From Bdellovibrio bacteriovorus W (GTDB lineage Bacteria; Bdellovibrionota; Bdellovibrionia; Bdellovibrionales; Bdellovibrionaceae): a stretch of DNA of 64,000 nucleotides. The notes beneath the pieces are model-generated. The model was not told the DNA's origin. It worked only from the letters and a program-made list of their open reading frames with translations, and made no database searches. Shown here in pieces: positions 30,763 through 35,141 of this stretch. The stretch spans positions 2,356,001 to 2,420,000 of the forward strand of contig CP002190.1 in the NCBI GenBank assembly GCA_000525675.1, written 5' to 3'. Made by a program: the position numbers and the translations under genes. Within the stretch, counting starts at the first letter, position 1. Each line of letters opens with the position of its first letter.

Positions 30763-32445
30763 TTAACGGTCCAACTCTCCAGCAATAACGTTCATAGTTG
30801 AAAGTGTCGCAATAGCGTCTGGAAGCATCGCTCCCTTAACAACCGTTGGGAACGATTGATAGATCGCAAAACATGGCGCTCTTACTTTCAAACGGTACGG
30901 ATTCGCAGAGCCATCGCTCACTAGGTAGAAACCAAGCTCACCGTTAGCAGCTTCCGTTGCATCGTAAACTTCACCCACTGGTGGGCGAAGTCCTTTGATG
31001 ATCAACATAAAGTGATTCATCAAACCTTCGATGTTTCCGTAAACGTCTTTTTTCTCTGGAAGAACAATTCCTTTATCGCGAATTGTGTAATCGCCACCTG
31101 GAATGTTTTTGCAAACCTGTTCAATGATACGCACTGACTGACGCATTTCCTCGAAGCGAACCATGAAGCGATCATAAACGTCGCCATTTGTTCCAACTGG
31201 GATATCAAAGTTCAATGCATCGTAACCGTAGTATGGCTGAGCTTTACGCAAATCATGCGCTACACCCGTTGCACGCAACAATGGACCTGTGTAACCCCAT
31301 TGAATCGCGTCTTGAGCAGATACTGGACATACATCACGAGTTCTCTTAATAAAGATCTTATTCTCAAGAACCATTCCGGCCATTTCATCAGTGCCTTTTT
31401 TAATCTCTTTAATAAGATCAAGCACATCATCGAACCAACCTTCAGGAGCATCTTGAGCCATCCCACCAACACGGGTCATAGACACGGTTAAGCGAGCGCC
31501 ACAAAGCTTTTCAAAAAGACCGTAAACTTTTTCACGCATTTGGAACATATAGAAGAAGCCTGTTAAAGCTCCTAAGTCCATCGCACCAGTACCAAGTGCA
31601 ATTGTATGATCCATGATACGAGATAGTTCCGCCAAAATAACACGCATTGCTTGCGCTTTCGGAGGAATCTCAACTCCCAACAAACGCTCAACCGTTTTAC
31701 AGTAACCAATGTTGTTCATCGGCGCTGAGCAATAGTTCAAACGATCTGTATAAGGGATCACTTGATTGTACGGATGCGTTTCTGCCATTTTCTCAAAACA
31801 GCGGTGCAAATAACCAATTTCGTTATTACAACGAACGATTGTCTCGCCATCCATCTCAGCCATGATACGCAAGGTACCGTGAGTTGCTGTGTGTGATGGT
31901 CCTACGTTGATTGGAACATACTTATCATTCAAAACGTCTCCAGGAGATCCCGGCTCGTTATTGAAATGAAGAGGTACGCTTGAATCACAAGACTGCTGAT
32001 GATCAGCTTCATAATCTTTTCTTAAAGGATGACCAACGAATTGATGATGAGTCAAAATACGGCGAAGATTTGGATGACCTTCGAAAATAATCCCGAACAT
32101 GTCATAAGCTTCGCGTTCAAACCAATCGGCCCCGCGCCAAGCATTCAGAGCTGTGCCGATAGACTCACCCTCACCCACCTGAGCTTTTAGACGCAGACGA
32201 GAAGAATCTTTTGAAGAGTAGAGTTGATAGACTACATCGAAACGCTTATCGCGATTTGGATAATCCACCCCGCAAATGTCCATCAAGAAATCAAAAGAAC
32301 CCGTATCACGAAGATGCAAAAGAACCGCCGGAACAAATTCCTTTGGAAGTTCAATCATGTCGTCACCCACAGCGTGAGTGAACTTAAATTTCGTTACATC
32401 AAATTTTGCAGACAAGATCTGCTTAATATTCTCAAGCTTTGTCAT
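30763..32445 (-). CDS. nuoCD: NADH-quinone oxidoreductase fused subunit CD
   Basis: This 560-residue protein joins NuoC (about 1-165, ending in the conserved [20 protein letters not shown] and the HPLRKDYE region) to NuoD (about 175-560, with [15 protein letters not shown] and a C-terminal [14 protein letters not shown]). NuoD forms part of the quinone-binding pocket with NuoB. C-D fusions are known in several lineages. It overlaps nuoB by 14 bases. Confidence 0.96.
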
Positions 32446-32995
32446 ATGGATTCTTCCAGTTATCTTTCCAAGGACGTGGTTGATGAGTTGCGATCATACG
32501 CTGTAGCGCCATGATTCCATCCATCACTGCTTCTGGAGTCGGTGGGCACCCAGGAATGAATACATCCACTGGAATAATTTTATCAACGCCTTGAACAACG
32601 TGATATGCGCGATAGAAGCCACCAGAGCTTGCGCACGCTCCCATAGAAAGAACATATTTTGGTTCAAGCATTTGCTCATAAATGCGCACGATGACCGGAG
32701 CCATTTTCTCGGTGATTGTGCCAGCGACAACTAGAAGGTCCGCTTGACGAGGAGAGAAACGCGCAACCTCAGCACCAAAACGTGCTAAGTCGTATTTCGG
32801 TCCCATCACCGACATGAATTCGATACCGCAGCAAGCAGTCCCGTACGGCATAGGCCAAAGTGAATTTTTTCGCCCCCACGCAACCAAAGCATCAAGCTTG
32901 GAAGTGAAAGCAAAGCTTCGTGACATGTCATCCGCTGCCTGAGTTCCTGTCACCCCTGAATGGGACGCAGTACCCTGCACTTCATCATTGTGCAT
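32432..32995 (-). CDS. nuoB: NADH-quinone oxidoreductase subunit B
   Basis: This 187-residue subunit holds cluster N2, the last iron-sulfur centre before quinone. Ligands are the adjacent CC in [11 protein letters not shown] in MGACASSGG and C in PGCPPTPE. An AGAGGTG site precedes the ATG. It is the first gene of the operon. No nuoA lies upstream: the next gene is divergent and unrelated. Confidence 0.96.
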
Positions 32996-33111: not shown

Positions 33112-33193
33112 AAATGCGAGTAAATGAAATTGATTCTCCGCTCTGTCATCTTCACACTGGTTGTTCGACTTGTTTTTCGATGGAAGGATTCTT

Positions 33194-34414
33194 ATGAAAA
33201 CAATTTCGATTTCGGCACGTTTTGCTGTTTTCATACTTTTACTCCTGAGCCCGCTCCTTAGTCAGGCTCGCACCAAAAAGGCTCCCAAACCCCAAATTAG
33301 CCAAGAATTGCTTATTAAAGTGGCGAATGAGTCTCCTCTTCAGCAACTTAAGATGCCTTTTACGCCTTTAGGGAGAAATTGGTTTGTGTTGCGAAACACT
33401 CGCCACCTCTCCTGGGCAGAAATTCAAAACCAAGACGGTGTGATATTTCTGCAACAAAACTCAGCCATTCAATTGGCTGAGAACTACAAACTTCAAGACT
33501 CTCTTCGTCGCGCCGCCTTGACAAAACTGATCAAAAGAAACGCTCATCTTCTAGAAGTCGAGGAAGCCTCGCCACATGATGCGGAGTCACAAATCACATC
33601 CCCGCCCCAGACCTACTCCCAAGGTCACGAAAAACTCAAGGTCGCCCTTTTAGGAACGGGCATCGACCTTGCCGACAATAACGTTAGAAACCACATCGCC
33701 ATCAATCATAAAGAAATCGCCGACAACGGAATTGATGACGACAACAACGGCCTCATTGACGACATCAATGGCTGGGACTTTGTGGAAAACTCCAATCTTC
33801 CCATGGAGAAAACTCTTCGCCCCGAAGAGATCCTTACTCTCGGAGGCAACCCGGGCCAAGGAACTCACGCCGCAAGAAAATTGCTTACAGACAAAACGCA
33901 TTCACAAACAGAACTTCTGCCAATTCGAATTCTTAACGCTCAAGGAGTCGGCAAACTTTCAGATCTTTTGCATGGAACTTTTTATGCCCTTGAAAACAAT
34001 GCACGAATCATTCACGTACAAGCCTCTCTAGAGGACTCTCTACGCAGAACTCCAGCCCTGCAAGAACTTCTGACGATCGCAGAAGAGGCCGGCAGCAAGT
34101 TCGTTTATCCAGATATCATTTTAGAAACCGAAGAGACCTGCCCCGCTGCCGACGATAAAAACCTCATAGCAACACTCAAAAAAATCTCCGAAGAGGACGG
34201 CAGATCGTTAGCGATTGATTTCTTGGGATACAAAGTTGAGTTCAGCAAAATTCAATCAGCACTGACGACTTATACGCAGGCACTTATCAGCACATGGAGT
34301 CGCAACACCAAAGCTTCGCAAGAAACTGTTCGCAACAAAACAGCGAATGATCTTAAAAAACTTCGCTGTGTTGTTGCGACGGAGATGAACGGCTCTGAGT
34401 TTTATAAAAATTAA
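33194..34414 (+). CDS. Secreted subtilase-like protein lacking catalytic residues
   Basis: From the ATG at 33194 (AAGGA 6 bases upstream) the protein has 406 residues and a signal peptide ending SQA-RTKK. The core follows the S8 subtilase plan: KVALLGTGIDLAD (about 149-161), a calcium-loop-like segment GIDDDNNGLIDDINGWDFV (179-197), GQGTHAARKL (221-230) and LLPIRILNAQGVGKLSDLLH (241-260). But the catalytic Asp of DTG is Gly154, the catalytic His of HGTH is Gln222, and no GTSMAxP serine motif exists. It is therefore probably inactive as a protease and may bind peptides or act as a decoy or regulator. Its 3' end overlaps the convergent gene by 62 bases. Confidence 0.82.
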   Translation: MKTISISARFAVFILLLLSPLLSQARTKKAPKPQISQELLIKVANESPLQQLKMPFTPLGRNWFVLRNTRHLSWAEIQNQDGVIFLQQNSAIQLAENYKLQDSLRRAALTKLIKRNAHLLEVEEASPHDAESQITSPPQTYSQGHEKLKVALLGTGIDLADNNVRNHIAINHKEIADNGIDDDNNGLIDDINGWDFVENSNLPMEKTLRPEEILTLGGNPGQGTHAARKLLTDKTHSQTELLPIRILNAQGVGKLSDLLHGTFYALENNARIIHVQASLEDSLRRTPALQELLTIAEEAGSKFVYPDIILETEETCPAADDKNLIATLKKISEEDGRSLAIDFLGYKVEFSKIQSALTTYTQALISTWSRNTKASQETVRNKTANDLKKLRCVVATEMNGSEFYKN

Positions 34415-35141
34415 TTTCTTCTGGGGTTCTTTCTTTACGAACTCCAGGTGCCAAAATTTCCTGCCCTATTACACTTTGATCCTTGGGATACTTTCTTGAA
34501 AGCGCCATCAAATCCGAGTGATAAGACAGAATCAATGTTCCGCGCTGAAGAGTGTTTGCTAACTCTACAAATTCATTTTTCCCCAATGCTATGCCACCAT
34601 CACTCCACCCCATGCGTTTGTTTTTCGCAGCAAATGCTTCTGAGACAAATGGCACCCCATAAATAACAAATTCTTTTTCTCGTGTTTGACTATTCGACTT
34701 ATCAATTCCATCCATCGGAATGACAACATCCTTTTTAGGATCTTTGCGGAACCCTCTAGCGTATAAAAACCCTAAAGAACTCTTACGCTCTTCGGGCCTG
34801 TTTGAAAAGCTTCGCGTCTGAACGAAGCCTGAGGATTGGGCGTGCCCCACATAGTAGCTCAAGACCTCTCCAGACCATAAATTAATAAGATGAAAGCGCT
34901 TCGCCGTAGAAGGCTTTGAATAGTCAATCAACACAGCCGCCTGTGTATTGGCGATCCGACCCGCGTTGTAATCAAGCATGTTAAAGATTAAATCCAGCGC
35001 TTCCCTCTTTAGGCCTGCGCCTTCAAGCTTATCAATGATATAGTTTCCATCACTGTCTCGCCGCTTAAAGACGCTTGCTTCGGCCCATGAGGTGAATGAG
35101 AAAATTAAAATAGCAATAATCGTGTATTTCCATTTTTTCAT
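34353..35141 (-). CDS. L,D-transpeptidase-like (YkuD_2) protein without catalytic Cys/His
   Basis: This 262-residue protein has a signal peptide ending AEA-SVFK and follows the murein L,D-transpeptidase catalytic-domain family in order: IDYSKPSTAKRFHLINL (73-89), SFSNRPEERKSSLGFLYARG (111-130), EFVIYGVPFVSEAF (157-170) and GWSDGGIALGK (178-188). In active members the last two read approximately VIHG and GRSxGCPAL. Here the histidine is Tyr161 and the catalytic cysteine is Gly183, so the fold looks intact but inactive. It may bind peptidoglycan stems. It converges with, and overlaps by 62 bases, the pseudo-subtilase gene. Confidence 0.82.
   Translation of the reverse strand: MKKWKYTIIAILIFSFTSWAEASVFKRRDSDGNYIIDKLEGAGLKREALDLIFNMLDYNAGRIANTQAAVLIDYSKPSTAKRFHLINLWSGEVLSYYVGHAQSSGFVQTRSFSNRPEERKSSLGFLYARGFRKDPKKDVVIPMDGIDKSNSQTREKEFVIYGVPFVSEAFAAKNKRMGWSDGGIALGKNEFVELANTLQRGTLILSYHSDLMALSRKYPKDQSVIGQEILAPGVRKERTPEEINFYKTQSRSSPSQQHSEVF

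Follow-up and report, generated by a model that had tools for sequence, protein, structure and literature searches.

An apparently dead subtilase beside nuoB, confined to the W lineage among the Bdellovibrio family genomes compared

In the 64,000-nucleotide stretch of the Bdellovibrio bacteriovorus W genome analysed here (the window), the gene divergent from nuoB encodes a 406-residue protein that is apparently a catalytically dead subtilase; judged by alignment, its catalytic Asp and His and the oxyanion Asn are gone and its Ser motif is destroyed. On this sequence evidence the protein is a pseudoprotease, with the catalytic residues absent and the gene kept open. Synteny and homology together identify it as the orthologue of the subtilase that most relatives carry beside nuoB. 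Among 52 copies at this locus the pseudo form is, by alignment, confined to the W genome, and is thus restricted to one lineage. The features on which the analysis rests are the following.

33182–33187, plus strand: Shine-Dalgarno-like GGAAGG, 6 nt upstream of the ATG (sequence)
33194–34414, plus strand: pseudo-subtilase coding sequence, 406 aa (ORF calling; syntenic orthologue of intact subtilases)
33194–33268, plus strand: Sec-type signal peptide, residues 1–25 (...LLSQA), with the cleavage site judged by eye
33299–33553, plus strand: prodomain-like module, residues 36–120 (orthologue prodomain profile, E 2e-14; model pLDDT >90 over most of it)
33653–33655, plus strand: Gly154 in place of the catalytic Asp (alignment with orthologues)
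33725–33763, plus strand: retained Ca-loop-like segment NGIDDDNNGLIDD, residues 178–190 (retention analysis)
33857–33859, plus strand: Gln222 in place of the catalytic His, the next His being residue 225 (alignment with orthologues)
34106–34411, plus strand: residues 305–406, barely recognisable and shortened by deletions of 10 and 30 residues (orthologue profile; alignment)
34253–34258, plus strand: Gln354-Ser355 at the catalytic Ser site, Gln aligned and Ser one residue on, in a marginal alignment with orthologues
32432–32995, minus strand: nuoB, divergent neighbour and anchor of the syntenic locus (synteny)
34353–35141, minus strand: convergent YkuD_2 L,D-transpeptidase gene, its last 20 codons antisense to the pseudo-subtilase 3' end (ORF list; Pfam)

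Catalytic positions and descent from the nuoB-linked subtilase

A reading made from the sequence alone had placed Gly at the catalytic Asp and Gln at the catalytic His and had noted that GTSMA is missing, and both the sequence and the orthologue alignment bear this out. LLG154TGID stands where VIDTG is expected and PGQ222GTH where PGHGTH is expected, so that the D-[TS]-G and HGTH motifs of active S8 proteases are both lacking; the position of the oxyanion Asn, likewise a mark of active S8 enzymes, is deleted, and no GTSMA motif occurs anywhere in the 406 residues. The protein gives no match over the cut-off to Pfam PF00082 (Peptidase_S8), and the Pfam and NCBIfam searches returned no family and no NCBIfam protease model. 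A phmmer search of solved structures nevertheless finds subtilisins at 3.5e-10, via residues 148–279, a likeness that exceeds chance.

Congeners carry, divergent from nuoB, a gene for a subtilase of ~472 residues that comprises signal peptide, prodomain and S8 domain (PF00082, E 1e-58), and the W gene occupies an identical position and orientation. The intact copy of genome G003 (L136:9244-10662, 472 aa, PF00082) shares with the W protein the locus, orientation, signal peptide, Ca-loop and prodomain motif, the last of which, YKxQDxLRRAAL, is specific to the family; it differs in keeping D164, H232, N330 and S415, in being 66 residues longer, and in matching PF00082 at 1e-58 where the W protein has no match. 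Across the family, nuoB was found in 62 of 66 genomes, with the subtilase at the locus in 52 (counting G061, where it lies ~6 kb from nuoB) and absent there in 10. Asp, His, Asn and Ser are intact in 50 of the 52 copies (49 from the alignment, and G065 read directly), a distribution that contradicts the earlier description of the pseudoprotease as conserved. All four positions are lost in one copy, that of the window genome (G000), where the Ser call rests on a marginal alignment. The one from G028 (genus g5; L137:9294-10619) lies at the same nuoB locus and has lost core segments (140–149 and 368–388, orthologue numbering) that overlap those missing from the W protein; it differs from the latter by keeping Asp, His and Ser, with Ser in place of Asn, and by still matching PF00082 at 1e-25. 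Neither the 66 family genomes, the 141 genomes of the order, nor a single scan each of a genomic and a viral contig collection yielded a closer homologue of the W protein, and comparison of the pseudo form is therefore limited to one genome.

The proposal that the pseudoprotease is secreted agrees with its signal peptide, which sequence comparison places at the N-terminus of the orthologues too, and with a frame that is open and apparently selected despite the loss of Asp, His and Asn and the destruction of the Ser motif. Codon usage and G+C at the three codon positions fall within the range of the other window genes, and coding statistics score the other five frames at the locus below the frame 33194–34414.

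The window genome encodes about 13 other S8 proteins by Pfam search, and the five for which the first search of this genome gave full listings keep their catalytic motifs, as judged by eye. Atypical-looking S8 matches in G000, G003 and G006 were set aside, since their catalytic residues seem, by eye, to be kept. The divergent S8 proteins at L200 (G000:C1:2022800-2025200) and L201–L203 have SGATP or SSNSAA for GTSMA, with catalytic residues apparently intact by eye.

Extent of the remaining scaffold

The S8 scaffold had been described as well kept, and this stands for the first part of the protein only. An orthologue profile matches residues 31–123 (4e-12) and 142–304 (2e-32), a span that includes the Ca-loop-like segment and an LSD helix at about 255–267. 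The description fails for residues 305–406, which in the orthologues hold the oxyanion Asn, the later sheet strands and the Ser; here the match to the profile is marginal, second best among 1000 shuffled copies. Over the whole protein, 39 of the 165 near-invariant orthologue columns are deleted, and there are seven deletions of at least 3 residues, all in frame. Among the undeleted near-invariant columns, the best 20-column run keeps 17 against an overall rate of 0.39 (P=0.0005 by shuffling) and spans residues 171–221, Ca-loop-like segment included, a clustering that could partly come from misalignment outside the cluster. The prodomain is 34% identical to that of congeners and the stretch between Asp and His 49%, and the figure falls to 18–19% in the later catalytic parts; the intact congeners share 73%, 86% and 79–88%, respectively, among themselves.

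An AlphaFold model of the pseudo-subtilase reached a pLDDT of 76.5 and a pTM of 0.77, with an alignment that included active orthologues and so biased the model toward the subtilase fold. Confidence is very high in the prodomain, good in the core, and poor at 310–331 and 392–406. Among solved structures the model comes closest to unprocessed pro-subtilisins (2zwp, Z 21.8, 257 residues, 3.5 Å), and its prodomain is packed as it is in them. Modelled likewise, an intact orthologue gave a pLDDT of 85.4 and matched the same chain with Z 41.2 over 339 residues at 2.0 Å, its best Z scores being 41–46 as against 21.8. The predicted fold is therefore that of a trimmed pro-subtilisin and not a well-kept S8 scaffold.

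Divergence, locus rearrangement and competing explanations

The pseudo-subtilase is only ~28% identical to its congeners over ~386 aligned residues. When neutral substitution of an intact orthologue was simulated, the first stop appeared at 96% identity on average, and none of 300 simulations retained an open frame at or below 60% identity. An open frame after such divergence is, as far as sequence can tell, beyond simulated neutral decay. The neighbouring nuo proteins are slightly faster, at 0.143–0.157 to congeners as against ~0.10 between congeners, and the subtilase branch of the window genome is 8.34 changes per column long (median 0.13), a saturated value that says only that the branch is very long. 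The protein tree likewise puts the pseudo-subtilase on a long branch; its membership of the genus clade is not rejected (AU p 0.196), and neither is a clade joining it to the G028 copy.

The 3' side of the locus has been rearranged. In G003, the subtilase is separated from a convergent YkuD-type L,D-transpeptidase by a YceI gene, an MbnB/TglH/ChrH-type enzyme, a DUF2063 gene and a chemotaxis receptor (together L136:10700-14640), an interval whose content varies in length among congeners. In the window this four-gene block is gone (junction at ~34414), and a search of the 3.0 Mb W genome at 1e-5 gave no match to the MbnB-type gene. The YkuD gene has lost the stop codon it had ancestrally and now runs ~20 codons antisense into the pseudo-subtilase 3' end (34353–34414). 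Since both the block and the YkuD stop have been lost, the sequence indicates that a deletion joined the 3' ends of the two convergent genes.

We interpret the gene as probably encoding a secreted, non-catalytic protein, derived from the single nuoB-linked subtilase and kept as a binding module, a reading we hold with modest confidence. The secreted subtilase of the Bdellovibrio family would have lost its catalytic machinery in the W lineage; its frame has stayed open, and the parts retained are the prodomain-like module and that half of the catalytic domain which holds the Ca loop. The protein would be exported, and because it lacks a triad for self-processing its prodomain would stay attached, leaving a permanent prodomain-plus-core unit whose job may be binding and not cutting. 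Against this reading we count the absence of the gene beside nuoB in 10 of 62 genomes, by which dispensability is common, and the last third of the protein, which by the orthologue profile looks unconstrained. These same observations belong to its main rival, a relic under relaxed selection: inactivated and drifting, its frame held so far by some weak constraint (e.g. avoidance of toxic misfolding), and on course to disappear. The missing gene in 10 genomes, the disappearance of the adjacent four-gene block from a 3.0 Mb genome, the barely recognisable last third, the very long branch and the erosion of the G028 copy would all suit a relic. However, ~70% of the amino acids have changed while the frame stays open, codon usage is normal and the seven deletions are all in frame, which is unexpected under drift, as is the clustered retention of invariant residues, and we regard the relic as a serious possibility that is nonetheless somewhat doubtful.

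Other origins fare worse. Replacement of the native gene by an unrelated paralogue or a horizontally acquired subtilase would accord with a tree that does not place the protein firmly, yet we hold it improbable, given the same position and orientation beside nuoB, the family-specific prodomain motif shared with the orthologues, a genus clade that the AU test tolerates, and the want of any closer relative in the 141 order genomes. Continued proteolysis through shifted residues is harder still to credit: Asp158, His225 and Ser355 do lie within four positions of those lost, but intact orthologues carry equivalents of Asp158 and His225 in addition to their true catalytic residues, the oxyanion Asn has been deleted, and the catalytic domain lacks its later strands. 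The sequence-only reading had held that an intact triad in the orthologues would refute it, and had glossed such an outcome as a recent loss or a sequence error. Asp, His, Asn and Ser are indeed intact in all but two of the copies, and the dead form is seen in the W genome only; the gloss fails, because identity is ~28% to every congener and simulated neutral decay to that level always breaks the frame. The reading frame is open yet divergent along its whole length, the genome is a single contig with a completeness of 99.96%, and the segments missing from the protein are not coded in other frames at the locus, nor is there a sign there of a frameshift, leaving an error or a very recent pseudogene the least credible of the explanations.

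If the binding-module reading is right, precedent would allow the protein to sense, hold or inhibit a partner; sibling subtilases are the obvious candidates. That the protein acts as a prodomain-type inhibitor of those siblings is a guess by analogy, and an unlikely one, although the prodomain-like module expected of a SUB1-ProM-like inhibitor is present. Similarly unlikely would be a secreted regulator derived from a digestive subtilase, whose uncleavable prodomain and Ca-stabilised half-domain bind and restrain sibling subtilases of the predator, or those of prey, with G028 converting the same gene independently.

Comparison with known non-catalytic subtilases

Events that leave one lineage with an S8 pseudoprotease are of a known kind, and in this case the W lineage lacks a protease that most relatives keep. 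The literature searched holds nothing on a Bdellovibrio pseudoprotease of this sort, and the HD100 orthologue is not named in the literature found. With synteny fixed, this one locus offers a clean natural series from protease to non-catalytic protein, with 50 intact copies, one half-eroded and one dead; counting also the genomes where the gene is absent, the series is unusually complete, and it bears on whether the prodomain is what survives.

Well-studied bacterial pseudoproteases of subtilase origin are few, and the Csp proteins of Clostridioides difficile are the worked case. CspC keeps Asp105, has Thr for His and Gly for Ser, superposes on CspB at 1.03 Å and carries a jelly-roll insert; its prodomain stays attached without self-processing, and it works as a sensor or regulator (PMC6636752). 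CspC and CspA resemble the W protein in being subtilase-derived, and our model matches the CspC-CspA entry 9pr8 with Z 17.3, although they are not orthologous. The W protein differs from CspC in having lost all catalytic residues and in its trimmed core, and it is without the jelly-roll insert that marks the CspC type, being shorter than its orthologues with no extra domain predicted. A second likeness, again without orthology, is to SUB1-ProM of Plasmodium, a stand-alone prodomain-like protein that inhibits a subtilase in trans (PMC6993865): in both, a prodomain-like module is retained with no active protease attached. SUB1-ProM, however, is a prodomain-like protein alone whose inhibition has been shown, whereas in the W protein half of the catalytic domain remains and an inhibitory role is putative.
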